64,000 bases of DNA from Gallaecimonas sp. GXIMD4217 (GTDB lineage Bacteria; Pseudomonadota; Gammaproteobacteria; Enterobacterales; Gallaecimonadaceae), in assembly GCF_038087665.1 (NCBI RefSeq), contig NZ_CP149925.1, positions 2,480,870 through 2,544,869 of the forward strand, given 5' to 3'. A program made the position numbers and the translations under genes. How positions within the stretch are numbered: the first letter of the stretch is position 1; the number at the start of each line of letters is the position of its first letter. The notes under the pieces were generated by a model. That model saw nothing but the letters and a program-made list of their open reading frames with translations. It made no database searches and was not told where the DNA came from. This document shows, piece after piece, positions 37,247-46,891 of the stretch.

Positions 37247-40069
37247 TGCGAAGGTTTTCTGCCACAGGGCCTGGACCGCTTGGCGCTCCGCCAGCAGGGT
37301 ATCGGCCGGCACCAGCCGATCCTGGCCCTGCAGCACCTGGCGGTGGCCGGCCTCCCGCAGCGCCAGGTAAGTCCTTTTCAGGCTCTCGGCGTCGGCCTCG
37401 GCCAGGATCCCCTCGGCGGCCAGGGCCTCCAGCTGGCGCACGTTGTCGCTGAAGGTGAGGATGCGCGGGTGCTCGTGGCCGTGCCTGAGCAGCAGGTACT
37501 GGACCAGGAACTCGATGTCGGTGATGCCGCCCGGGCCCTGCTTGAGATCCAGCAGCCCGTCACGGCCGCCGTCCAGGTGACTGCGCATCTTGTCGCGCAT
37601 GGCCACCACCTCGGCCTTGAGCTCCTCCTCTGCCCTGGCCTTGGCCAGCACCGCCAGGCGAGTCTGCTCGAAGCGCTGGCGCAGCACCGGCCGGCCGTGC
37701 ACCGAGCGGGCCCGGCTCAGGGCCTGGTGCTCCCAGCACCAGGCCTCCTTGTGCTGGTAGTCGGCAAAGGCGTCCAGGGTGCTGACCAGCAGCCCGGAGG
37801 CGCCGGAGGGACGCAGCCTGGTGTCTATTTCGTAGAGCACCCCGCTCAGGGTGCGGGTGCTGAGCAGGTGGGTGAGCTTCTGCACCACCTTGAGGTAGAA
37901 CTGGCGGCTGCCGATGGGGCGCTCGCCATCGGTCTGGCTGTCGCCGCCGGCCACCAGGAACACCAGATCCAGATCCGAGCCATAGCCCAGCTCCAGGCCG
38001 CCGAGCTTGCCGTAGCCCAGCACCAGCAGATCCTCCGGGCCCTGGGCCGGCGGGCTGCCGTGGCGCACGGCCACAGAGCGCCAGGCCAGCTGGATGCAGG
38101 CCGCCACTATGGTTTCGGCCAGGCGGCTCAAGTGATCGCTCACCTTCATCAGCGGCATCACCCCGGACAGGTCGGCGGCGGCGATGCGCAGGCTCTGGGC
38201 GGCCTTGAACTGGCGCAGCGCCTCCATCTGCCCTTCCAGGTCGTCCGGCTCGATGCGCAGCAGGTAGCGGTCCAGCTCCGGCTGGTAGTCCTGCAGCGGC
38301 AGCGGCGAATGCAGGTGGCGGGGATCGATGAGCTCGTCCAGCAGCAGCGGCATGGCGGTGAGCTGGTCGGCCACCAGGCGCGACGCCGCCAGCAGCTTGA
38401 TCAGCTGGGCCCGGGCGCCGGGGTTTTCCAGCAGCAGCTCCAGGTAGACGGTGCGGCTGACCAGGGTCTTGAGCAGCGCGGTGAGCCGGGCCACGGTCGC
38501 CACCGGCTCGGCCAGGCCGCGCAGCTGCCAGAGCAGCATCGGCAGCAGCTTTTCCAGGCGCCGGCGGCCGCGCTCGCCCATGGGCCGGGCCGCCAGCTCC
38601 GCCAGCAGGTTGGCAACGGCTTCGGCGAGCTCCTGGTCCAGTTCCAGGCTGACGCCGCCCTCCAGCAGCAGCCTGGCCAGCTCGTCGCTGCTCCACCGGG
38701 CGGCGGTGATGCTGGTCAGGGCCTCGGGCAGCTCGCTCTCGGCCTGGGGCTCGTCGCCTATGGATTCCCGGAACAGCCGGTGCACCAGGGCCTGGTGGCG
38801 CGCCAGCTCGGCGCTGAAATCCTGCCAGGAGGCAAAGCCCTGCAGGGCGGCCAGGCGCAGCCGGTCCAGCTCGCCGCTGGGCAGGGTCTGGGTCTGCTTG
38901 TCGGCAATGGCCTGGAGGTTGTTCTCGGCGCAGCGCAGGAACAGGTAGGCGGCCCTGAGCGCCCGGCCCTCGTCGTCGGTGAGCACGCCCAGGCGGACCA
39001 GCTCCTCCAGGGCCGCCAGCAGCGACTGGGTGCGCAGGGTCGGCTCCCGGCCACCACGGATGAGCTGGAACACCTGCACCAGGAACTCCACCTCGCGGAT
39101 GCCGCCCGGGCCCAGCTTGAGGTTGTCCTTGAGGCCGCGGCGGCGGATCTCGGTCTCGATCAGCCGCTTCATGTCCCGCAGCGAAGCCAGGGCCGAGTAG
39201 TCCAGGTAGCGGCGGTACACGAAGGGCCTGAGCAGCTCGCTGAGCTCGTCCTCGTGGCCGCCGGCCCGGCCCATGCAGCGGGCCTTGATCATGGCGTAGC
39301 GCTCCCACTCCCGGCCCTGGGACTGGTAGTAATCCTCCAGGGCGTCGAAGGACAGTACCAGGGGCCCGGACTCGCCGTAGGGGCGCAGGCGCATGTCGAC
39401 CCGGTACACGAAGCCGTCCGTGGTCACCTGATCCAGGGCCTGGATCAGCTTCTGACCCAGCTTGACGAAGAATTCCTGGTTGTCGTAGCTGCGTCGCCCG
39501 CCCCGGGTCTCGCCGGCCCTGGGGTAGGTGAAGATGAGGTCGATGTCGGAGGAGAAGTTGAGCTCGCCGCCGCCCAGCTTGCCCATGCCCAGCACCAGCA
39601 GTGGCTGGGGCCGGCCCTCGGCGTCGCAGGGGGTGCCGCGCAGGGCGCATTGCTGCTCGTAGAGCCAGTCCCGGGCGGCGACGATCAGGGTCTCGGCCAG
39701 CCTTGACAGCGCCTCGATGCGCGCCACCTCGTCCATCTGGCCGTCCTGGCTGAGCCAGATCAGGGCGCACAGCCAGCGCTTTCGCCACAGCCTGAGCGCC
39801 TGCCAGAGTTCGGCCTCGCTGGTGCAGGCCCTAAGCTCGGGGCCGGCGTCCATGGCCTTGAGGTCCGCCGGCGTCAGGGCCAGCAGCCAGGCCGGCCAGT
39901 CGCCAAAGCCCAGGCAGCATTCCAGCAGGAAGTCGCTGCAGGCCAGGCGCTGGCCAAGCCGCTGTTGCTGTTCCCGGCTCAGCTCGGCCAGCTGCTCGGG
40001 GTGCCGCTCTTGCAAGCGGCTCAATGATGCTTCAGCCTGTAGCATCAAGGCCTTGGGCCACTTTGTCAT
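37244..40069 (-). CDS. glnE: Glutamine synthetase adenylyltransferase/deadenylylase
   Basis: GlnE attaches AMP to glutamine synthetase and removes it, under control of PII proteins, setting nitrogen assimilation. The 941-residue protein (E. coli 946) has two nucleotidyltransferase domains. The N-terminal deadenylylase carries GMGKLGGGELNFSSDIDLIFTY and VDMRLRPYGESGPLVLSF; the C-terminal adenylylase carries GYGKLGGLELGYGSDLDLVFL and IDTRLRPSGASGLLV. I chose ATG 40069, nine bases after an AAGG; earlier ATGs at 40078 and 40090 lack spacing or fall in the palindrome at 40086-40098. That palindrome lies upstream of glnE as well as the divergent lipoprotein gene. Confidence 0.95.
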   Translation of the reverse strand: MTKWPKALMLQAEASLSRLQERHPEQLAELSREQQQRLGQRLACSDFLLECCLGFGDWPAWLLALTPADLKAMDAGPELRACTSEAELWQALRLWRKRWLCALIWLSQDGQMDEVARIEALSRLAETLIVAARDWLYEQQCALRGTPCDAEGRPQPLLVLGMGKLGGGELNFSSDIDLIFTYPRAGETRGGRRSYDNQEFFVKLGQKLIQALDQVTTDGFVYRVDMRLRPYGESGPLVLSFDALEDYYQSQGREWERYAMIKARCMGRAGGHEDELSELLRPFVYRRYLDYSALASLRDMKRLIETEIRRRGLKDNLKLGPGGIREVEFLVQVFQLIRGGREPTLRTQSLLAALEELVRLGVLTDDEGRALRAAYLFLRCAENNLQAIADKQTQTLPSGELDRLRLAALQGFASWQDFSAELARHQALVHRLFRESIGDEPQAESELPEALTSITAARWSSDELARLLLEGGVSLELDQELAEAVANLLAELAARPMGERGRRRLEKLLPMLLWQLRGLAEPVATVARLTALLKTLVSRTVYLELLLENPGARAQLIKLLAASRLVADQLTAMPLLLDELIDPRHLHSPLPLQDYQPELDRYLLRIEPDDLEGQMEALRQFKAAQSLRIAAADLSGVMPLMKVSDHLSRLAETIVAACIQLAWRSVAVRHGSPPAQGPEDLLVLGYGKLGGLELGYGSDLDLVFLVAGGDSQTDGERPIGSRQFYLKVVQKLTHLLSTRTLSGVLYEIDTRLRPSGASGLLVSTLDAFADYQHKEAWCWEHQALSRARSVHGRPVLRQRFEQTRLAVLAKARAEEELKAEVVAMRDKMRSHLDGGRDGLLDLKQGPGGITDIEFLVQYLLLRHGHEHPRILTFSDNVRQLEALAAEGILAEADAESLKRTYLALREAGHRQVLQGQDRLVPADTLLAERQAVQALWQKTFA

Positions 40070-40083
40070 GGATGCCATCCTTG

Positions 40084-40112
40084 TGGACATATTATGTCAG
40101 GCATGCTATCTG
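40084..40112 (+). promoter_or_regulatory. Promoter with embedded palindrome, upstream of the lipoprotein-DUF350-aminopropyltransferase operon
   Basis: TGGACA (40084-40089), a 17-base spacer and TATCTG (40107-40112) form a plausible sigma-70 promoter. The 13-base palindrome GACATATTATGTC (40086-40098) overlaps the -35 element. It is followed by AGGCATGCTA, nearly the same as AGGCTGCTA after the matching site at 43751-43763. Occupancy would block RNA polymerase. It also lies 17 bases upstream of the glnE ATG. Confidence 0.7.
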
Positions 40113-40144
40113 TAAAACCTACCCTATTCACCCAAGAGGACGCC

Positions 40145-41107
40145 ATGGATCTCAGGCTTACTCTCCGGCCCTTGAGGTGGCTAACCGCATTGCTGGTGCT
40201 GATGTTAACGGCCTGCGGCGACCCGCTACAAGACGAGCTGGATATCCAGTCCAAGATCGCCACCCAGCAGGTCAACGAGCTGGGCACCGCCCTGGATCAG
40301 GACAAGCTGCGCAACGCCCGCCTGCTCAAGGACTACGCCAAGCGCGTCAAGGACCTCAAGCCGGATTACGCTTCCCTGGTCGATGAACTGGCCAAAGACG
40401 CCAGCCGCCAGGGCCCCCTGTACCAGTCCCTCCAGGAGCGCCTGGAGACGGCCCTGAACCAGCCGGAGCAGTTCGCCAAGCCCGAGGAGCGGCTCCGGGA
40501 GCTGATCAACATCCGCGAGGCCGCCGACAAGATCCTCTTCAACGACGCCCTGGCCGATCCCCTCAACGTGCTGGCGGATCTCTCCGGCGGCGCCCTGCCC
40601 AGGGTCAATGCCCTGCCCAAGGCCCAGAGCCAGCAGGCCAACCAGGCCGAGGACTTCGGCGCCGGCAGCCAGCTGATCGGCAACCCCGGCTACGGCCAGT
40701 GGGTGCAACGGGACGGCATGAGCTTCTGGGAGTGGTACGGCATGTACGCCCTCTTCTCCAACCTCTTCGACAGGCCCATCCATTACGACCGCTGGTCCAG
40801 GCACAGGGATTATTCCTACTATTCGGACTATGGCCGCTACCGTTACACCAAGCCCAGGGACTACCAGCGCCAGCAGCAGCGGGCCCAGAAGGCGTTCAAG
40901 AGCGACAGCCGCTTCAAGAGCCCCTATGCCAAGAGCCGCACCGGCGCCAGCCGCCTCAGCCAGGCCAGCCGCCAGGCCCCCAAGACGGTGCAGCAGGCCA
41001 GCAAGTTCCGCGGCGGCGGCAGCAAGTTTGCCAGCAAGTCCAAGTACAACTCGAGCTTCAGAAACAGCCAGAATCGCACCAGCCGCGGCGTCAGGCGCGG
41101 TAAATAA
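40145..41107 (+). CDS. Lipoprotein with basic tail, first gene of the DUF350/aminopropyltransferase operon
   Basis: This 320-residue lipoprotein has an export signal with lipobox LTAC (Cys24). The middle is a charged helical region (LGTALDQDKLRNARLLKDYAKRVKDL). An aromatic-rich segment follows (MSFWEWYGMYALFSNLFDRPIHYDRWSRHRDYSYYSDYGRYRY, given here as landmarks). The long tail is rich in Arg, Lys, Ser and Gln, almost without acidic residues. The aromatic segment plus Ser/Arg-rich tail resembles the YgiB/YjfM (DUF1190) style, but I cannot claim homology. The ATG at 40145 follows AGAGGA. The strongly basic tail could bind the outer-membrane inner face, peptidoglycan or polyanions; this is inference. 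Confidence 0.7.
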   Translation: MDLRLTLRPLRWLTALLVLMLTACGDPLQDELDIQSKIATQQVNELGTALDQDKLRNARLLKDYAKRVKDLKPDYASLVDELAKDASRQGPLYQSLQERLETALNQPEQFAKPEERLRELINIREAADKILFNDALADPLNVLADLSGGALPRVNALPKAQSQQANQAEDFGAGSQLIGNPGYGQWVQRDGMSFWEWYGMYALFSNLFDRPIHYDRWSRHRDYSYYSDYGRYRYTKPRDYQRQQQRAQKAFKSDSRFKSPYAKSRTGASRLSQASRQAPKTVQQASKFRGGGSKFASKSKYNSSFRNSQNRTSRGVRRGK

Positions 41108-41119
41108 CAGGGAACGACC

Positions 41120-42025
41120 ATGAACCAGATCTTGGATTTTCTCACCATCAACCAGAGCCTGGCGGTGATCCTGCTCATCGACCTGGCCATCGCCATCGCC
41201 CTGCTGGGCACCATGCGCTTCGTCACCGGCTGGCTGGCCAAGACCGACTCCACCGCCGAGCTGGCCAGCAAGGACAATATCGCCTTCGGCATCAGCGTGG
41301 CCGGCTCGGTCGGCGCCCTGGGCATCATGCTCACCGGCGCCATCACCGGCGAGGCGGCGCTGTCCTACAGCACCGAGGCCATCGGCATGGCCGCCTACGG
41401 CATCGCCGGCCTGCTGCTGATCAAGGCCGGCCGCTGGATCCACGACAAGGTGGCCCTGAACGCCCTGGACAAGCGCGAGCAGATCATCGACCACGGCAAC
41501 GTGGCCGTGGCCCTGGTGGACGCCGCCTCCGCCATCGCCACCGCCGTGGTGATCCGCGCCGTGCTGCTGTGGGCCGAGGGCCTGACCCTGGGCACAGTGC
41601 TGTCGGTGCTGGCCGGCTTCGCCCTGTCCCAGGTGCTGCTGGTGGCCATCACCCGCCTGCGCGAGAGCGGCTACGCCAAGCGCAATCCCGGCGAGAGCCT
41701 GCAGCAGGCGCTGGTCCGCGGCGAGCTGGCGGTGGCCGTGCGTCATGCCGGCCAGCTCATCGCCACCGCCCTGGTGGTCAAGGCCGCCAGCCACTTCCTT
41801 GAGTTCAATCCCGAGGCGCTGCTGGCCACCCTGGCCACCTGGCTGGTCATCACCCTGGTGCTGGCGCTGCTGCTGACCGCCCTGGTCTGGCTGGCCCGGT
41901 CGCTGATCCTCTACCGCATCGACCTCAATAGCGAGGTGGAGCAGCAGCACAACACCGGCATCGCCGCCGTGGAGATGGCCATCAGCATCGCCATCGCCCT
42001 GATCCTCACCGCGCTGATGGTGTGA
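41120..42025 (+). CDS. Double DUF350 membrane protein (YjfL-like)
   Basis: YjfL of E. coli is a four-helix DUF350 protein of about 130 residues and unknown function. This 301-residue protein contains two such units in tandem. The first includes VILLIDLAIAIALLGTMRFVTGWLA, DNIAFGISVAGSVGALGIMLTGAI and AAYGIAGLLLIKAGRWIHD. The second includes VAVALVDAASAIATAVVIRAV and later membrane segments, ending AVEMAISIAIALILTALMV. About eight helices are expected. It lies 12 bases after the lipoprotein gene and one base before the aminopropyltransferase start, so the three are one operon. YjfL homologues recur with PspA/YjfJ and polyamine enzymes. Confidence 0.85.
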   Translation: MNQILDFLTINQSLAVILLIDLAIAIALLGTMRFVTGWLAKTDSTAELASKDNIAFGISVAGSVGALGIMLTGAITGEAALSYSTEAIGMAAYGIAGLLLIKAGRWIHDKVALNALDKREQIIDHGNVAVALVDAASAIATAVVIRAVLLWAEGLTLGTVLSVLAGFALSQVLLVAITRLRESGYAKRNPGESLQQALVRGELAVAVRHAGQLIATALVVKAASHFLEFNPEALLATLATWLVITLVLALLLTALVWLARSLILYRIDLNSEVEQQHNTGIAAVEMAISIAIALILTALMV

Positions 42026-42026
42026 C

Positions 42027-43730
42027 GTGGGCGAAACCCAAAGGAGGCTGTTCGACGACAGCCTGCTTATCGGCATCATGGCGGTGCTGGCCGCCTGCGG
42101 CCTGATCTACGAGTACCTGCTGTCCCATTACGCCGGCCGGGTGCTGGGCACCCTGGAGAGCGCCATCTACGCCATGATCGGCCTGATGATCGTCTCCATG
42201 GGCCTGGGCGCCTTCGCCGCCCGCAAGGTGAGCCATCCCTACCGGGGCTTCGTCTGGCTGGAGCTGGCCATCGCCCTGGTCGGCGCCAGCGCCGTGCTGG
42301 TGGTGGCGGCCCTGATCGGCTTCACCCAGCTGCTGCCGACCCTGGTGGCCGACACCTTCGCGCTGCCGCCGGACATCCGTCCCCAGGGCGGCCTGTTCGC
42401 CGTCCTGCAGAAGGCCGCCAGCTACGGCCCCTACCTGGCCGGCACATTGCTCGGCTTTTTGGTGGGCATGGAGATCCCACTGATCGCCCGGGTCCGGGAA
42501 GACGTACACCAGCGCCACCTCCAGCACAATGCCGGCACCATCTACGGCGCCGACTATATCGGCGCCGGGGTCGGTGCCGCCCTCTGGGTGCTGGTGATGC
42601 TGCGCCTGCCCATCAGCGAGGCCGCCGCCTGGACCGCCAGCCTCAACCTGGTGGCCGGCCTGGCCTTCCTGTGGCGCTTCTGGAGCCAGATGCGGCGCCC
42701 GGCGTTGCTGCTGGGCCTGCACCTGGGCCTGGCGGGCCTGGTGGCCGCCATCGGCTTCAGGGGACCGGAACTCAACCAGCAGCTGTCGGCGCTGCTGTAC
42801 CAGGACAAGGTGGTGCACCAGGCCCAGACCCCCTACCAGCACCTCACCTTCACCGAACGCCTCAGCGGCAACGGCAACGCCGAGTACCGCTTCTACCTCA
42901 ATGGCCGGCTGCAGTTCTCCAGCCTGGACGAACACATCTACCACCGCATGCTGGTGCATCCGGCCCTGCTGGCGGCCCGGGCGCCCAAATCGGTGCTGAT
43001 CATCGGCGGCGGCGACGGCCTGGGGCTGCGCGAGGTGCTGCGCTGGGATATCGAGGAGGTCACCCTGATCGACCTGGACGAGCAGCTGCTGGCGCTGTTC
43101 CAACAGCCCGAGCAGGAGCTGCCGGGCCGGCTGGGCCGGGCCATGGCCAGGCTCAACCAGGGCAGCCTCAGGGATCCGCGCCTGACCCTGATGCCGGGGG
43201 ACGCCTTTATCCGCATCGACGAGCTGGCCCAGGCCGGCCGGCGCTTCGATGCCGTGATCATCGACCTGCCGGATCCCAGCCACCCGGATCTCAACAAGCT
43301 CTACAGCCAGCAGTTCTATGCCCGGCTGCGCAACCTGCTCAGCGGCGACGGCGCCCTGGTGGCGCAGTCCACCAGCCCCTGGTTCGCCCAGAAGGCCTTC
43401 ATCTCGGTGGCCAAGACCCTGGCCGCCGCCGGCTTTGCCGACGTGGCCCAGTACCATGTCAACGTGCCCAGCTTCGGGGAATGGGGCTTCAGCCTGGCGG
43501 TACCGGCCGGCCCCGGGGTGAAGGAACGGCTGGCCCGGCCACTGCCCTTCGAGGACGACTGGCTGAACAGGGACATCCTGCTGGCCGCCTTTGCCTGGCC
43601 CTCCTACTTTTACCGGGACCAGGCCGAGGTGCAGGTGAACTGGCTGGGCAGCCATGTGCTCTACCAGTACCACCAGCAGGCCTGGGCCTCGGAGCAGGGC
43701 CTCAGCAACCCGCTGTCGGGCAGTGAGTAA
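42027..43730 (+). CDS. Membrane-tethered polyamine aminopropyltransferase (SpeE-like)
   Basis: The N-terminal 240 residues form about seven membrane helices (for example 12-32, 45-64, 74-99, 132-155, 175-195, 200-218, 225-243). The rest is a spermidine-synthase-type Rossmann domain with HLTFTERL, LNGRLQFSSLDEHIYHRMLVHPAL (in part), the AdoMet-type motif GGGDG (327-331), LIDLDEQLL and the proton-acceptor motif IIDLPDPSHPDLNKLYS (D413). SpeE enzymes transfer an aminopropyl group from decarboxylated AdoMet to an amine. The GTG at 42027 is one base after the DUF350 stop codon. The acceptor is unknown. No AdoMet decarboxylase gene is nearby. Confidence 0.85.
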   Translation: MGETQRRLFDDSLLIGIMAVLAACGLIYEYLLSHYAGRVLGTLESAIYAMIGLMIVSMGLGAFAARKVSHPYRGFVWLELAIALVGASAVLVVAALIGFTQLLPTLVADTFALPPDIRPQGGLFAVLQKAASYGPYLAGTLLGFLVGMEIPLIARVREDVHQRHLQHNAGTIYGADYIGAGVGAALWVLVMLRLPISEAAAWTASLNLVAGLAFLWRFWSQMRRPALLLGLHLGLAGLVAAIGFRGPELNQQLSALLYQDKVVHQAQTPYQHLTFTERLSGNGNAEYRFYLNGRLQFSSLDEHIYHRMLVHPALLAARAPKSVLIIGGGDGLGLREVLRWDIEEVTLIDLDEQLLALFQQPEQELPGRLGRAMARLNQGSLRDPRLTLMPGDAFIRIDELAQAGRRFDAVIIDLPDPSHPDLNKLYSQQFYARLRNLLSGDGALVAQSTSPWFAQKAFISVAKTLAAAGFADVAQYHVNVPSFGEWGFSLAVPAGPGVKERLARPLPFEDDWLNRDILLAAFAWPSYFYRDQAEVQVNWLGSHVLYQYHQQAWASEQGLSNPLSGSE

Positions 43731-43748
43731 AAAAGATGCAGGGAAGGC

Positions 43749-43776
43749 TTGACATAAAATGTCAGGCTGCTAGATT
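43749..43776 (+). promoter_or_regulatory. Promoter with palindrome 1, upstream of the yjfI-pspA-yjfK operon
   Basis: TTGACA (43749-43754), a 16-base spacer and TAGATT (43771-43776) form a promoter whose -35 element overlaps the palindrome GACATAAAATGTC (43751-43763). The following AGGCTGCTA nearly repeats the sequence after the palindrome at 40086-40098. This marks the start of a second transcription unit immediately after the aminopropyltransferase gene. Confidence 0.72.
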
Positions 43777-43785
43777 GAACCACAT

Positions 43786-43798
43786 GACATATTATGTC
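43786..43798. promoter_or_regulatory. Palindrome 2 (operator candidate) of the yjfI-pspA-yjfK operon
   Basis: GACATATTATGTC, identical to the site at 40086-40098. It is centred 35 bases downstream of the palindrome at 43751-43763, just past the expected transcription start and ahead of the ribosome site GAGGGAG. Confidence 0.75.
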
Positions 43799-43810
43799 GA
43801 GGGAGAAAAG

Positions 43811-44224
43811 ATGAACATCCACAAGATTGCCAACCACCTCAACAGCCTGGGCGACAACGCCGAAAGCGGCTTCAACTTTGATTGTCAGCCCATCTCCGGC
43901 GAGGTGGACGTACTGCAGGTGACCATCCAGGGTCGCGAGGAGATCCCGGTCTTCGTCTCCGTCAGCGACGACCAGATCCTGGCCATCAGCTTCCTGTGGG
44001 GCGAGGCAGAAGTGAGGGAAGAGCGCCGGGTCGAGATGCTGGAAGCCATGCTGGAAATGAACATTCCCATGCCGCTGTCCGCCTTCTCCAAGATCGGCGA
44101 CAAGTACGTCATCTTTGGCGCCCTCAGCATCAACTCCAGCCTCTCGGACATCGAGCACGAACTGGCGGTGCTGTCCGAGAACGCCCTGGAAGTGATTGAC
44201 GACATGAGTGATTTCCTGCGCTAA
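43811..44224 (+). CDS. yjfI: DUF2170 protein, YjfI-like
   Basis: The 137-residue acidic cytosolic protein matches the DUF2170 family, named for E. coli YjfI, which is encoded just before the PspA paralogue YjfJ. Alternating strands (VDVLQVTIQGREEIPVFVSVSDDQILAISFLW) precede helices (RVEMLEAMLEMNIPMPLSAFSKIGDKYVIFGAL; DIEHELAVLSENALEVIDDM). The layout resembles type III secretion chaperones of the CesT/Tir class; this is a fold guess. The ATG at 43811 follows GAGGGAG; an ATG at 43783 lies in the operator region and is less likely. It leads the second operon. Confidence 0.85.
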   Translation: MNIHKIANHLNSLGDNAESGFNFDCQPISGEVDVLQVTIQGREEIPVFVSVSDDQILAISFLWGEAEVREERRVEMLEAMLEMNIPMPLSAFSKIGDKYVIFGALSINSSLSDIEHELAVLSENALEVIDDMSDFLR

Positions 44225-44251
44225 CGCGCACCGACAAGTGAGGTTCCTATC

Positions 44252-44950
44252 ATGAGCATCTTCAAGAAAGTAATGACTGCCCTGCGCGGTGGTGCGCGGG
44301 AAGTGGGCGAAGCCATAGTCGACGCCAACAGCACCCGTATCTTCGAGCAGGAGATCCGCGACGCCGAGAACCACCTGACCAAGGCCAAGCGCGACCTGAC
44401 CGATGTCATGGCCAAGCAGATGGCCGCCGGCCGCGAAGTGGAGCGCCTGCGCCGCGACATCAGCGAGCACGAAGGCTATGCCAGCGCCGCCCTGGCCAAG
44501 GGTGACGAGGCCCTGGCCCTGGAAGTGGCCGAGAAGATCGCCGCCCTGGAGGCCGAGCTGTCCGAGCAGCAGGGCATACACGACAGCTTCAGCGCCAGCG
44601 CCGATCGCCTCAAGGATCTGATCAAGAAGACCGAGCGCCAGCTGGCCGACTACCAGCGCCAGCTGTCCATGGTCAAGACCACAGAGAGCGTGCAGAAGGC
44701 CACCGCCGCCATCACCGACAACTTCACCTCCTCCAACTCCAAGCTGCTCAACGCCAAGGAGTCCCTGGAGCGCATCAAGGCCAAGCAGCAGGCCTTCGAC
44801 GACCGCATGCAGGCCGCCGAGCAGCTGCAGGCGGAAGATTCCGACCAGAGCCTCAAGGCCAAGCTGGAAGCGGCCGGCATCGGTCCCCAGAAGGCCTCCG
44901 CCAACTCGGTACTGGACAGGCTCAAGGCCAAGAACAACCCTCAAGGTTGA
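44252..44950 (+). CDS. yjfJ: PspA/IM30 family protein, YjfJ-like
   Basis: PspA-family proteins are peripheral membrane coiled coils related to ESCRT-III that bind stressed inner membranes. The 232-residue product starts with an amphipathic helix (MSIFKKVMTALRGGAREVGEAIVDAN). It continues as long heptad-rich helices (IRDAENHLTKAKRDLTDVMAKQ; ALEVAEKIAALEAELSEQQ; LKDLIKKTERQLADYQRQL). It is followed by a terminator-like hairpin before yjfK, which would make PspA more abundant than downstream products. No pspF or pspBC lies nearby, so regulation differs from the classical phage-shock operon. Confidence 0.92.
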   Translation: MSIFKKVMTALRGGAREVGEAIVDANSTRIFEQEIRDAENHLTKAKRDLTDVMAKQMAAGREVERLRRDISEHEGYASAALAKGDEALALEVAEKIAALEAELSEQQGIHDSFSASADRLKDLIKKTERQLADYQRQLSMVKTTESVQKATAAITDNFTSSNSKLLNAKESLERIKAKQQAFDDRMQAAEQLQAEDSDQSLKAKLEAAGIGPQKASANSVLDRLKAKNNPQG

Positions 44951-44975
44951 TGCGTGCGAGATCCCACCAACCTTC

Positions 44976-45002
44976 TTTGGCGGCCCCTGGCCGCCCTTTT
45001 TG
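44976..45002 (+). terminator. Terminator or attenuator between yjfJ and yjfK
   Basis: The hairpin GGCGGCC-cct-GGCCGCC is followed by CTTTTTTG. It lies inside an apparent operon, 15 bases before the GTG of yjfK, so partial read-through would lower YjfK and the small regulator relative to the PspA paralogue. Confidence 0.65.
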
Positions 45003-45016
45003 CTTGAGGTAAGCCC

Positions 45017-45664
45017 GTGTTTGGAAAATGGTTTGGCAACAAGGCCGCCCCGGAGCGGCAAATCCAGCGCCCCCAGGAGCTGCAGGTGGGCGACATGATC
45101 CAGCTCACCGACAGCTTCGCCCTGCCTGGCGAACTCAGGGGCAAGATGCTGCAGGTGACCGAGGTCAACACCCAGGAGTTCGAGCGCGAGCACGGCCCCG
45201 AGTTCATCCTCAAGGGCGACCAGCCAGGCCTGCTCTACCTGACCCTGGATCAGGACGACGAGACCTGGCTGTGCTTCTCCAAGCGCATCTCCCGGGAGCA
45301 GGTGGACGCCCTGTTCGGCCTGGAGGCCTTCGGCGCGCTGTTCGAGGAGCCCGGCGAGGCCCAGCTGGAGGCCAGGGCGCTGCCGGCCCTGGACGGCTGG
45401 CACGGCGACCACTATGTGCAGGACGCCTTCGCCCAGATGGGCTACTTCCATCGCCAGGACTACCGCGGCGGCCAGCCGCCGGCCCATGAGGGCCGGGATG
45501 CCGGCGAGCCCTTCGAATACTACGGCCTGGGCAGCGCCGACGAGCGCTACCGGGTCGAAGTGGAGGTCTACGAGGACGGCGAGACGGACGTCAGCCTGAC
45601 CCTGGTGCGGCCCCTGTCCGACATCCGCGGCTACTTCCCGGGCCAGCACGGGCAGCCGTCATGA
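45017..45664 (+). CDS. yjfK: DUF2491 protein, YjfK-like
   Basis: This 215-residue protein matches the DUF2491 family, of which E. coli YjfK is the type. Its start is FGKWFGNKAAPERQ. The body includes LQVGDMIQLTDSFALPGELRGKMLQVTEVNTQEFER (in part), EDELGPEF-like acidic stretches and a C-terminal strand-rich part (YRVEVEVYEDGETDVSLTLVRPL). It is acidic and has no membrane segment or signal peptide, so it is cytosolic. I chose a GTG start at 45017, following GAGGT. It overlaps the next gene by four bases (ATGA). Function is unknown; it always appears with PspA-type partners in this gene family context. Confidence 0.85.
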   Translation: MFGKWFGNKAAPERQIQRPQELQVGDMIQLTDSFALPGELRGKMLQVTEVNTQEFEREHGPEFILKGDQPGLLYLTLDQDDETWLCFSKRISREQVDALFGLEAFGALFEEPGEAQLEARALPALDGWHGDHYVQDAFAQMGYFHRQDYRGGQPPAHEGRDAGEPFEYYGLGSADERYRVEVEVYEDGETDVSLTLVRPLSDIRGYFPGQHGQPS

Positions 45665-45996
45665 GCAAGAAGCCCCTGCCCGAGAAATGGCAATCCTCGG
45701 TCAAGGCCGCCAAGGCGGTGCAGGTGGCCTTCGACCTGGATGCCAGGCTGCAGTACGCCATCCGCCGCAGCGCCCTGGAGGAGGGCCTGAGCCCCTCGGA
45801 TCAGATCCGCACCCTGCTGGAGCTGCCGGTCAGCCGCCGCCCGAAAAGGCCGCGCCTGACCGTGTCCCTGTCCCAGGACGACTACCGGCTGCTGGCCGAG
45901 CGCTACGGCCTGGGCATGGACGACCAGCTGGAGATCAAGCGCCGCTGCCTGGACGAGCTGGTGGAAAAGGCCGAGCTCATCGACAAGGAACTCTGA
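45661..45996 (+). CDS. Small protein resembling two fused ribbon-helix-helix units; candidate regulator
   Basis: I do not recognise a named family. The 111-residue basic N-terminus leads into strand AVQVAFDL (19-26), helix ARLQYAIRRSALEEG (28-42) and helix PSDQIRTLLEL (45-55). This is the ribbon-helix-helix (RHH, MetJ/Arc-type) order, with the familiar 'S.S.QIR.LLEL' second helix. A second unit follows the basic linker SRRPKRP: strand RLTVSL (65-70), helix 71-83 and helix 86-104. A fused pair could fold as one DNA-binding pseudo-dimer. The ATGA overlap couples it to yjfK, and a terminator follows. It is the only candidate transcription factor in the cluster and may bind the three palindromes; this is inference. 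Confidence 0.6.
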   Translation: MSKKPLPEKWQSSVKAAKAVQVAFDLDARLQYAIRRSALEEGLSPSDQIRTLLELPVSRRPKRPRLTVSLSQDDYRLLAERYGLGMDDQLEIKRRCLDELVEKAELIDKEL

Positions 45997-46022
45997 CAAG
46001 GGCGCCCCAGGCGCCCTTTGTT
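45997..46022 (+). terminator. Terminator after the RHH-like gene
   Basis: AAGGGCGCC-cca-GGCGCCCTT followed by TGTT. It separates the yjfI-yjfJ-yjfK-RHH unit from the K+ channel gene. Confidence 0.65.
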
Positions 46023-46090
46023 AAGCCGGGCTGGAAATCCGCCGGCCACTCCTGAACAATGGCCGAAAACCAAGGACAGGAGCCCAATCC

Positions 46091-46891
46091 TTGAAAGCCC
46101 CGCTACGCATACTGCCCCCCAGCGCCTTCGAGCTGGCCATGATGGTGTTGTCCATCCTCTCCGTGGTGATCATAGTGCTGCACCAGTTCGGCCCCTTCAG
46201 CCCGGACGAGAAGGAACTGCTGCTCTATGTGGACACCGGCATCTGCCTGATCTTCCTGACCAACTTCTTCTCTGGCCTGATCAGGGCCAGCGACAAGAAG
46301 CGCTTCATCCGCACCCACTGGATCGACTTCCTGGCCTCCATCCCGGCCGTGGACGTACTCCGCTACGGGCGGATCTTCCAGGTGCTGAGGGTGATGCGGA
46401 TGCTGCGGGTGGCCAACCAGGTGATCCGCCACCTGATGAAGGAAAGCGAAAGCGCGGTGCTGGCCTCCATGCTGCTGATCATGGTGGTGGTGGTGGGCGG
46501 CAGCGCCATCGCCATACTGCTGACCGAAGCCGGCCGGGAAGGCTCCAACATCGCCACCGCCGAAGATGCCATCTGGTGGTCCCTGGTCACCATCTCCACC
46601 GTCGGTTACGGCGACTATTACCCTGTGACCACCGCCGGGCGCATCATCTCCGCCGTGGTGATCATCGCCGGGGTGTCGCTGTTTGGCGGCCTGTCGGGCC
46701 TGGTGGCCTCCAAGCTGCTGCACCCCAAGACGGAAGAATCCCTGGAGGAATCGGAAAGGCACCTGGCGGCCAGCGAAGACCGCCATATGGCGGACATGAA
46801 GGCGCACCTGGCCGAGATGAAAAACGAAATGTCCTCCCTGAAGGAGGACATTCGCGAGCTCAAGTCACTGCTGAAAAGTCAGGGCCAGTAG
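46091..46891 (+). CDS. Voltage-gated-type potassium channel subunit
   Basis: This 266-residue inner-membrane protein has the six-helix channel plan. S1-S3-like segments (for example 14-32, 47-64, 76-89) precede an S4-like helix with Arg every third residue (R91, R94, R100, R103, R106). S5 (121-145), the K+ selectivity filter TVGYGDYYP (170-178) and S6 follow. The C-terminal tail is a coiled coil (HLAASEDRHMADMKAHLAEMKNEMSSLKEDI). The start is TTG at 46091 with AGGAG upstream. It follows the yjf-type operon after a terminator, and its last 13 bases overlap the convergent ygiF gene. Such channels recur beside YjfL/PspA/polyamine genes, so a shared role is likely. Confidence 0.88.
   Translation: MKAPLRILPPSAFELAMMVLSILSVVIIVLHQFGPFSPDEKELLLYVDTGICLIFLTNFFSGLIRASDKKRFIRTHWIDFLASIPAVDVLRYGRIFQVLRVMRMLRVANQVIRHLMKESESAVLASMLLIMVVVVGGSAIAILLTEAGREGSNIATAEDAIWWSLVTISTVGYGDYYPVTTAGRIISAVVIIAGVSLFGGLSGLVASKLLHPKTEESLEESERHLAASEDRHMADMKAHLAEMKNEMSSLKEDIRELKSLLKSQGQ

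Follow-up and report, generated by a model that had tools for sequence, protein, structure and literature searches.

A cluster of eight adjacent same-strand genes, bringing together a PspA paralogue, a polyamine aminopropyltransferase and a K+ channel, is found in Gallaecimonas sp. GXIMD4217 within a 64,000-nucleotide stretch of contig NZ_CP149925.1 (positions 2,480,870 to 2,544,869; hereafter the window). The seventh gene encodes a 111-amino-acid protein with two predicted ribbon-helix-helix (RHH) units, which is probably (with a probability of about 0.8) a DNA-binding repressor that controls this cluster, including its own gene, together with a wider regulon for envelope and ion homeostasis. 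This reading is based on the gene content of the cluster, the predicted fold of the protein, the co-occurrence of its gene with a palindrome, the recurrence of the same genes behind that palindrome and the overlap of the palindrome with promoters, from which we infer direct binding, repression and a route of sensing.

In an earlier description made from the sequence (the original prediction), the cluster was divided into two co-regulated transcription units with a shared promoter element. This element is a 13-bp palindrome, GACATAWTATGTC, found as two operators (O1 and O2) at the unit starting with the DUF2170 gene (unit 2) and as one operator at the unit starting with the lipoprotein gene (unit 1), and the common operator at both supports their co-regulation. 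With at most one mismatch, TGACATAWWATGTCA has three copies in the window, at 40085, 43750 and 43785 (Table 1); with up to three mismatches it has seven matches against 0.5 expected, a number reached by none of 100 shuffles. The host genome (3.35 Mb) holds just six exact GACATAWWATGTC sites, three of which belong to the cluster. The remaining three precede a YqiJ gene (the next gene being labeled flotillin-like by eye), htpX and an SPFH/Band_7 gene, for which reason a regulon was suspected. The palindrome contains the GACAT half-site twice, with centers 8 bp apart, and would suit two tandem-RHH molecules placed next to each other; such a spacing of half-sites recalls MetJ. At 40060-40110 of the window, the unit-1 operator also overlaps the furthest-upstream possible ATG of the divergent glnE (40090); a more internal start (ATGACAAAG) seems the better candidate, and an effect of the operator on glnE is possible.

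The palindrome tracks the RHH gene across genomes. In a survey of 149 genomes of the order, the RHH protein is found in 50 genomes and GACATAWTATGTC in 51 (203 sites, compared with 7 and 42 sites for two control palindromes). The palindrome is present in 43 of the 50 RHH-positive genomes (191 sites) vs. 8 of the 99 RHH-negative ones (12 sites; Fisher p=7e-22), and one of these eight (G110) is a fragmented assembly from an RHH-positive genus. Within four families of mixed content, it occurs in 15/15 RHH-positive and 0/20 RHH-negative genomes (p=3e-10), a split that controls for shared ancestry above the family level. A wider sample of the class, taken outside the order, gives 5/8 vs. 3/264 (p=2.5e-7). 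The palindrome is absent from all 15 DUF2170-PspA loci that have no RHH gene close by. In the genome of one of these loci (G023) the RHH gene sits elsewhere, beside DUF4178 and K+ channel genes, and the palindrome sites precede a separate pspA, htpX, nhaA and a YqiJ-like gene.

Such an association is no proof of binding, and another transcription factor that travels with the cluster could read the palindrome, the RHH protein being, for example, antitoxin-like or accessory. A few RHH-negative genomes do hold one or two sites, and the RHH protein has a very weak similarity to the RelB/DinJ antitoxins (E 0.033). However, no other product of the cluster is predicted to bind DNA, and the palindrome follows the RHH protein both where it lies apart from DUF2170 (G023) and through gains and losses within families. 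With no toxin-like partner seen and many operators dispersed across the genome, the antitoxin role was set aside, and we regard the involvement of another factor as improbable.

Neither Pfam, which gave no match for the RHH protein, nor a sequence search of PDB and Pfam with the RHH family was informative, and its fold was therefore examined by structure prediction. The AlphaFold model, built on a 37-sequence alignment, has a strand-helix-helix arrangement in two copies per chain (mean predicted local distance difference test score, pLDDT, 80; predicted template modeling score, pTM, 0.67). Its best solved neighbors are F TraY (Z 7.2), a permuted single-chain Arc (6.1), DndE (5.8) and AvtR (5.5), the next row falling to 3.7. 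The RHH-like character originally attributed to this gene is thus retained in the model and refined to two predicted RHH units in a single chain, i.e., a probable tandem form of the superfamily; TraY is likewise described as an RHH dimer within one polypeptide (PMC12117103). Four residues predicted to point outward from the strands (A19, Q21, A23, and R65) do not vary across the alignment, and T67 and S69 hardly do. By the usual RHH pattern, these strand residues would face the DNA, and their invariance, together with the co-occurrence of the operator, lends indirect support to a putative sequence-specific binding via the beta ribbon. No relatives of the protein were found in phage records.

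Elsewhere, the genes downstream of the operator were surveyed in 62 site-bearing stretches from 23 genomes, one of which (G080) has no RHH gene. Recurrent genes are htpX (16 genomes), NfeD (8 genomes), NhaA (6 genomes), and SPFH and YqiJ-like genes (4 genomes each), while PspA, AIM24, an ion transporter and an M16 peptidase (the last labeled by eye) are found in single cases. Representative YqiJ, HtpX, SPFH, NhaA, NfeD, AIM24 and ion transporter targets were confirmed by Pfam, and the YqiJ-like protein of L198 matched no Pfam family. The theme of membrane protection, already proposed for the cluster, is strengthened by the many genomes in which this operator stands before htpX, SPFH/NfeD, YqiJ and NhaA genes. 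In family f7, a secreted-looking protein of about 100 amino acids, belonging to no recognized family, also stands behind the operator in three genomes (L196, L201, and L204).

The position of the operators within promoters indicates how the RHH protein may act. At unit 2 the predicted promoter is of the sigma-70 type, and among 62 distinct two-operator promoters of DUF2170 units, TTGACA lies within O1 in 62/62 and within O2 in 4/62, a -10-like hexamer has 3.9 of 6 matches vs. 3.2 for shuffled spacers, and the predicted start point corresponds to the first bases of O2. In most htpX promoters, a TTGAAA-like box is found about 16 nt upstream of a TATTAT that is itself inside the operator. Because these positions are occluding ones, repression is the better reading, and the RHH protein likely represses rather than activates. 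Sequence does not fix the type of a regulator with certainty, and an activator of the same regulon, of the kind that works with sigma-70, could act near the promoter; yet activators rarely sit at -35, -10 or start-point positions, and at unit 2 a perfect -35 box and an extended -10 are already in place, which makes activation quite unlikely. Two further features of operator placement were observed. In ten loci (L213, L218, L219, L221, L233, L237, L244, L247, L249, and L253) a CTTGAAA- or CTTGAT-like box, similar to the sigma-32 -35 element, lies some 16 nt ahead of the htpX operator, and heat and envelope control may combine at htpX. Outside the order, operators are packed in tandem 15 bp apart vs. 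a spacing of about 35 bp (L266, 5595-5655, three copies; L268, 8391-8420; L270, 7506-7535).

Genes were called as open reading frames (ORFs) plus profile matches, and all eight lie between 40084 and 46891 of the window as originally described (Table 1), with Pfam and NCBIfam confirming the DUF350, aminopropyltransferase, DUF2170, PspA and ion channel families. The lipoprotein gave no match in a Pfam search. In the transferase, Pfam and NCBIfam place the Spermine_synth domain C-terminal to the membrane part, residues 255-527 are matched by solved spermidine synthases, and the GGGDG nucleotide-binding motif and catalytic aspartates (DLPDP) are conserved in 64 homologues. By family and motifs it is a predicted aminopropyltransferase. 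The channel, for which voltage gating is the predicted type, contains the selectivity filter TISTVGYGD. A second, canonical PspA-family gene is present elsewhere in the genome, and Pfam detects no ATP-grasp domain among the eight genes. The original assignment of gene 6 to DUF2491 (YjfK) is rejected, as 0/19 homologues match DUF2491 and 11/19 match DUF4178 (best 4.9e-7), although the window copy itself has no PF13785 match even at E 1. Its model, predicted with confidence (mean pLDDT 92), is rich in beta strands and has no solved structural neighbor at Z >=5. As for the two transcription units, the shared element is found at both, but such a division is somewhat too simple, since hairpins follow pspA and the RHH gene. 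These hairpins suggest an attenuation by which DUF2170-PspA may be produced in excess over DUF4178-RHH and the channel.

Table 1. Features of the eight-gene cluster and its control regions (window coordinates).
Feature	Position	Strand	Evidence or remark
Unit-1 operator, palindrome GGACATATTATGTCA	40085..40099		glnE/lipoprotein divergent intergenic region
Lipoprotein, lipobox LTAC, basic C-terminal tail	40145..41107	+	ORF
Double DUF350 membrane protein	41120..42025	+	PF03994 7.8e-37, two stretches
Predicted polyamine aminopropyltransferase (PRK03612) with fused N-terminal membrane part	42027..43730	+	NF002956 2.4e-180
Predicted unit-2 promoter TTGACA-16-TAGATT, TG preceding -10	43749..43776	+	Consensus scan; geometry conserved in 62 two-operator promoters
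Operator O1, unit 2, TGACATAAAATGTCA	43750..43764		Includes -35 box
Operator O2, unit 2, TGACATATTATGTCG	43785..43799		Begins at predicted transcription start
DUF2170 (YjfI/BacA-like, CesT/Tir-type fold)	43811..44224	+	PF09938 1.5e-37
PspA/IM30 paralogue	44252..44950	+	PF04012 1.3e-40
Terminator-like hairpin and T tract between pspA and DUF4178 gene	44979..45002	+	-14.5 kcal/mol, z -2.2
DUF4178 beta-rich protein (gene 6)	45017..45664	+	11/19 family members match PF13785; model pLDDT 92
Tandem RHH protein (gene 7), proposed repressor	45661..45996	+	Predicted structure, co-occurrence with operator
Strong hairpin between RHH and channel genes	45994..46023	+	-19.8 kcal/mol, z -4.9
Six-transmembrane (6TM) voltage-gated-type K+ channel	46091..46891	+	PF00520 (Ion_trans) 2.7e-18, PF07885 1.7e-16

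The 80 best-scoring RHH loci, picked by RHH similarity, were compared and are found in Shewanella, Parashewanella, Oceanimonas, Zobellella, Oceanisphaera, Thalassotalea, Colwellia, Psychromonas, Catenovulum and other genera. The operator, DUF2170, PspA and RHH are present in 80/80, the RHH count being so by construction because the loci were selected on RHH similarity, and DUF2170 and PspA are the only genes that always accompany the RHH gene. DUF4178 is found in 65 loci, the lipoprotein, DUF350 and the transferase in 62-63 (lipoprotein 63), and the channel in 42; the unit-1 operator site also precedes the lipoprotein gene in most loci. All eight genes in the order of the window, a co-occurrence that the original prediction had proposed to look for, are found in about 41 of the 80. 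The channel slot beside the RHH gene is occupied by three architectures, either 6TM, short 2TM, or 2TM with an RCK domain, read in the window (45994-46891) and in L229, L266, L269, L274, L149 and L054 and called unrelated; with three unrelated architectures in one slot, K+ conductance appears to be wanted there regardless of channel type. Four same-genus relatives of the window (L067, L069, L070, and L074) harbor a minimal cluster of DUF2170, a diverged 188-amino-acid coiled coil, RHH and 6TM channel genes, in which the operator is kept and the coiled coil, without a Pfam match, stands in the place of PspA.

These loci also bear on the original proposal that the eight products form one membrane-protection machine, combining a polyamine product or modification, a PspA scaffold and an ion channel. 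The retention of gene order in about half of the loci, the conserved active-site motifs of the transferase and the K+ channel of one architecture or another in the same slot are in line with it. In contrast, the lipoprotein, DUF350 and the transferase are missing from 17-18 of the 80 loci, the four congeners have no more than DUF2170, the coiled coil, RHH and the channel, and the operator serves many distant genes, so that shared control does not imply one complex. A single machine is on balance doubtful, and the RHH gene, which had been counted among its parts, is better explained as a regulator.

Under the repressor model, a single RHH polypeptide would correspond in fold to an RHH dimer and read one GACAT half-site, and two molecules would cover the palindrome. 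At unit 2, the repressor bound to O1 would block the -35 box and that bound to O2 would cover the start point, while at other target promoters the operator coincides with a TTGACA or TATTAT promoter element. In the resting state, the RHH protein would repress both units, the dispersed targets and its own gene. Membrane damage, sensed most plausibly through DUF2170 and PspA, would lift this repression and supply the PspA scaffold, the HtpX protease, the SPFH/NfeD and YqiJ/YqiK microdomain proteins, NhaA, K+ channels, DUF350 and the aminopropyltransferase, after which newly made RHH protein would re-establish repression. The choice of DUF2170-PspA as leading sensor candidate is a guess, made because the pair always accompanies RHH in the 80 loci and because in Pseudomonas aeruginosa the loss of BacA, a DUF2170 protein, is described as raising its partners, so that DUF2170 can be a negative regulator (PMC10948618). 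In a more far-reaching form of the model, the system would be one more kind of PspA control circuit, in which DUF2170-PspA gates a natural single-chain RHH repressor via partner switching. The response run by this repressor might be genome-wide, serve the envelope and ion homeostasis of marine gammaproteobacteria and include, in one and the same slot, K+ channels of three architectures; this is put forward tentatively, with chances that we place somewhat below even.

Several observations weigh against the repressor model. No recognized target gene is found in 20/62 of the site-bearing stretches. The match to the RHH fold is moderate (Z about 7, pLDDT 80) and the Foldseek E-values are not significant. 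Seven RHH-positive genomes, all from family f12, have relaxed sites only, without a strict one. The second control palindrome is mildly biased to RHH-positive genomes (odds ratio 3.4), and given this mild clade bias the within-family test is the one to trust. Regarding the sensing route, G023 keeps the RHH gene and the DUF2170 locus apart. The relaxed operators of f12 (TGACATTTAATGTCA, TGTCATTATATGTCA, and others) are found before the DUF2170 gene, e.g., in L042, L048, L049 and L052, and the RHH strand residues look unchanged in this family. As for the second control palindrome, ACGATAWTATCGT, its 42 occurrences are spread over 28/149 genomes, with up to three per genome in family f2, and it may be the site of another regulator.

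To our knowledge, little is known about the control of the widespread PspA systems outside PspF, Lia and ClgR. For the branch combining DUF2170, PspA and polyamine genes, a regulator can now be proposed, together with an exact operator and a list of targets (HtpX, SPFH/NfeD, YqiJ/YqiK, NhaA, and K+ channels), and Shewanella is among the tractable genera that carry the system. Families about which little is understood (DUF350, DUF2170, DUF4178, and the membrane-fused aminopropyltransferase) would thereby be linked with proteolysis at the membrane, with membrane microdomains and with the balance of Na+ and K+. A search of the open PMC literature, covering the palindrome as well as an RHH/PspA regulon in Shewanella, found nothing relevant, and a membrane-stress regulon under RHH control is apparently unreported; it is the control, not the cluster, that was not found there. 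The classical Psp (PspF/sigma-54), Cpx and RpoE envelope responses share the effectors PspA and HtpX, but differ from the system of the window in regulator class and DNA site.

The cluster itself is already known, as the PspA/DUF2170 operon pair of the second group of Ravi et al. (2024), to which a K+ channel is added. This group is described as a six-to-seven-gene PspA operon (Shewanella AAN56744-AAN56747) with a CesT/Tir-like DUF2170, a spermine-synthase-like enzyme fused to a 7TM part, an 8TM DUF350, a lipoprotein, DUF4178 and sometimes a terminal RHH gene (PMC11237479). The window has in common with it the DUF2170-PspA dyad, the membrane-fused spermine synthase-like gene, DUF350, the lipoprotein, DUF4178 and the RHH gene. 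In the account given of this group, the RHH gene is called a 'transcription factor', without an operator or a target list, and a K+ channel, present in the cluster of the window, is mentioned for another group (PMC11237479).

The original likening to E. coli yjfIJKL, an operon associated with heat tolerance (PMC12492005), does not hold, the cluster being of the DUF4178/spermine-synthase type. As described, yjfIJKL and the third group of Ravi et al. share with the window DUF2170, a PspA paralogue and DUF350, and the third group also a potassium channel and a polyamine-type gene; however, DUF2491 is found where the window has DUF4178, and an ATP-grasp enzyme where it has the transferase (PMC11237479). 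The bac operon of P. aeruginosa has the DUF2170-PspA pair as BacA and BacB, but differs from the window by a proposed sigma-54 site and by the lack of a spermidine synthase, and the RHH gene goes unmentioned in the description of the operon (PMC10948618). With regard to the regulator, F TraY, AvtR and the engineered single-chain Arc resemble the RHH protein in having two RHH units per polypeptide, predicted ones in the latter. While TraY serves plasmid transfer and AvtR a virus, the RHH protein of the window is chromosomal and is proposed to control an envelope regulon.

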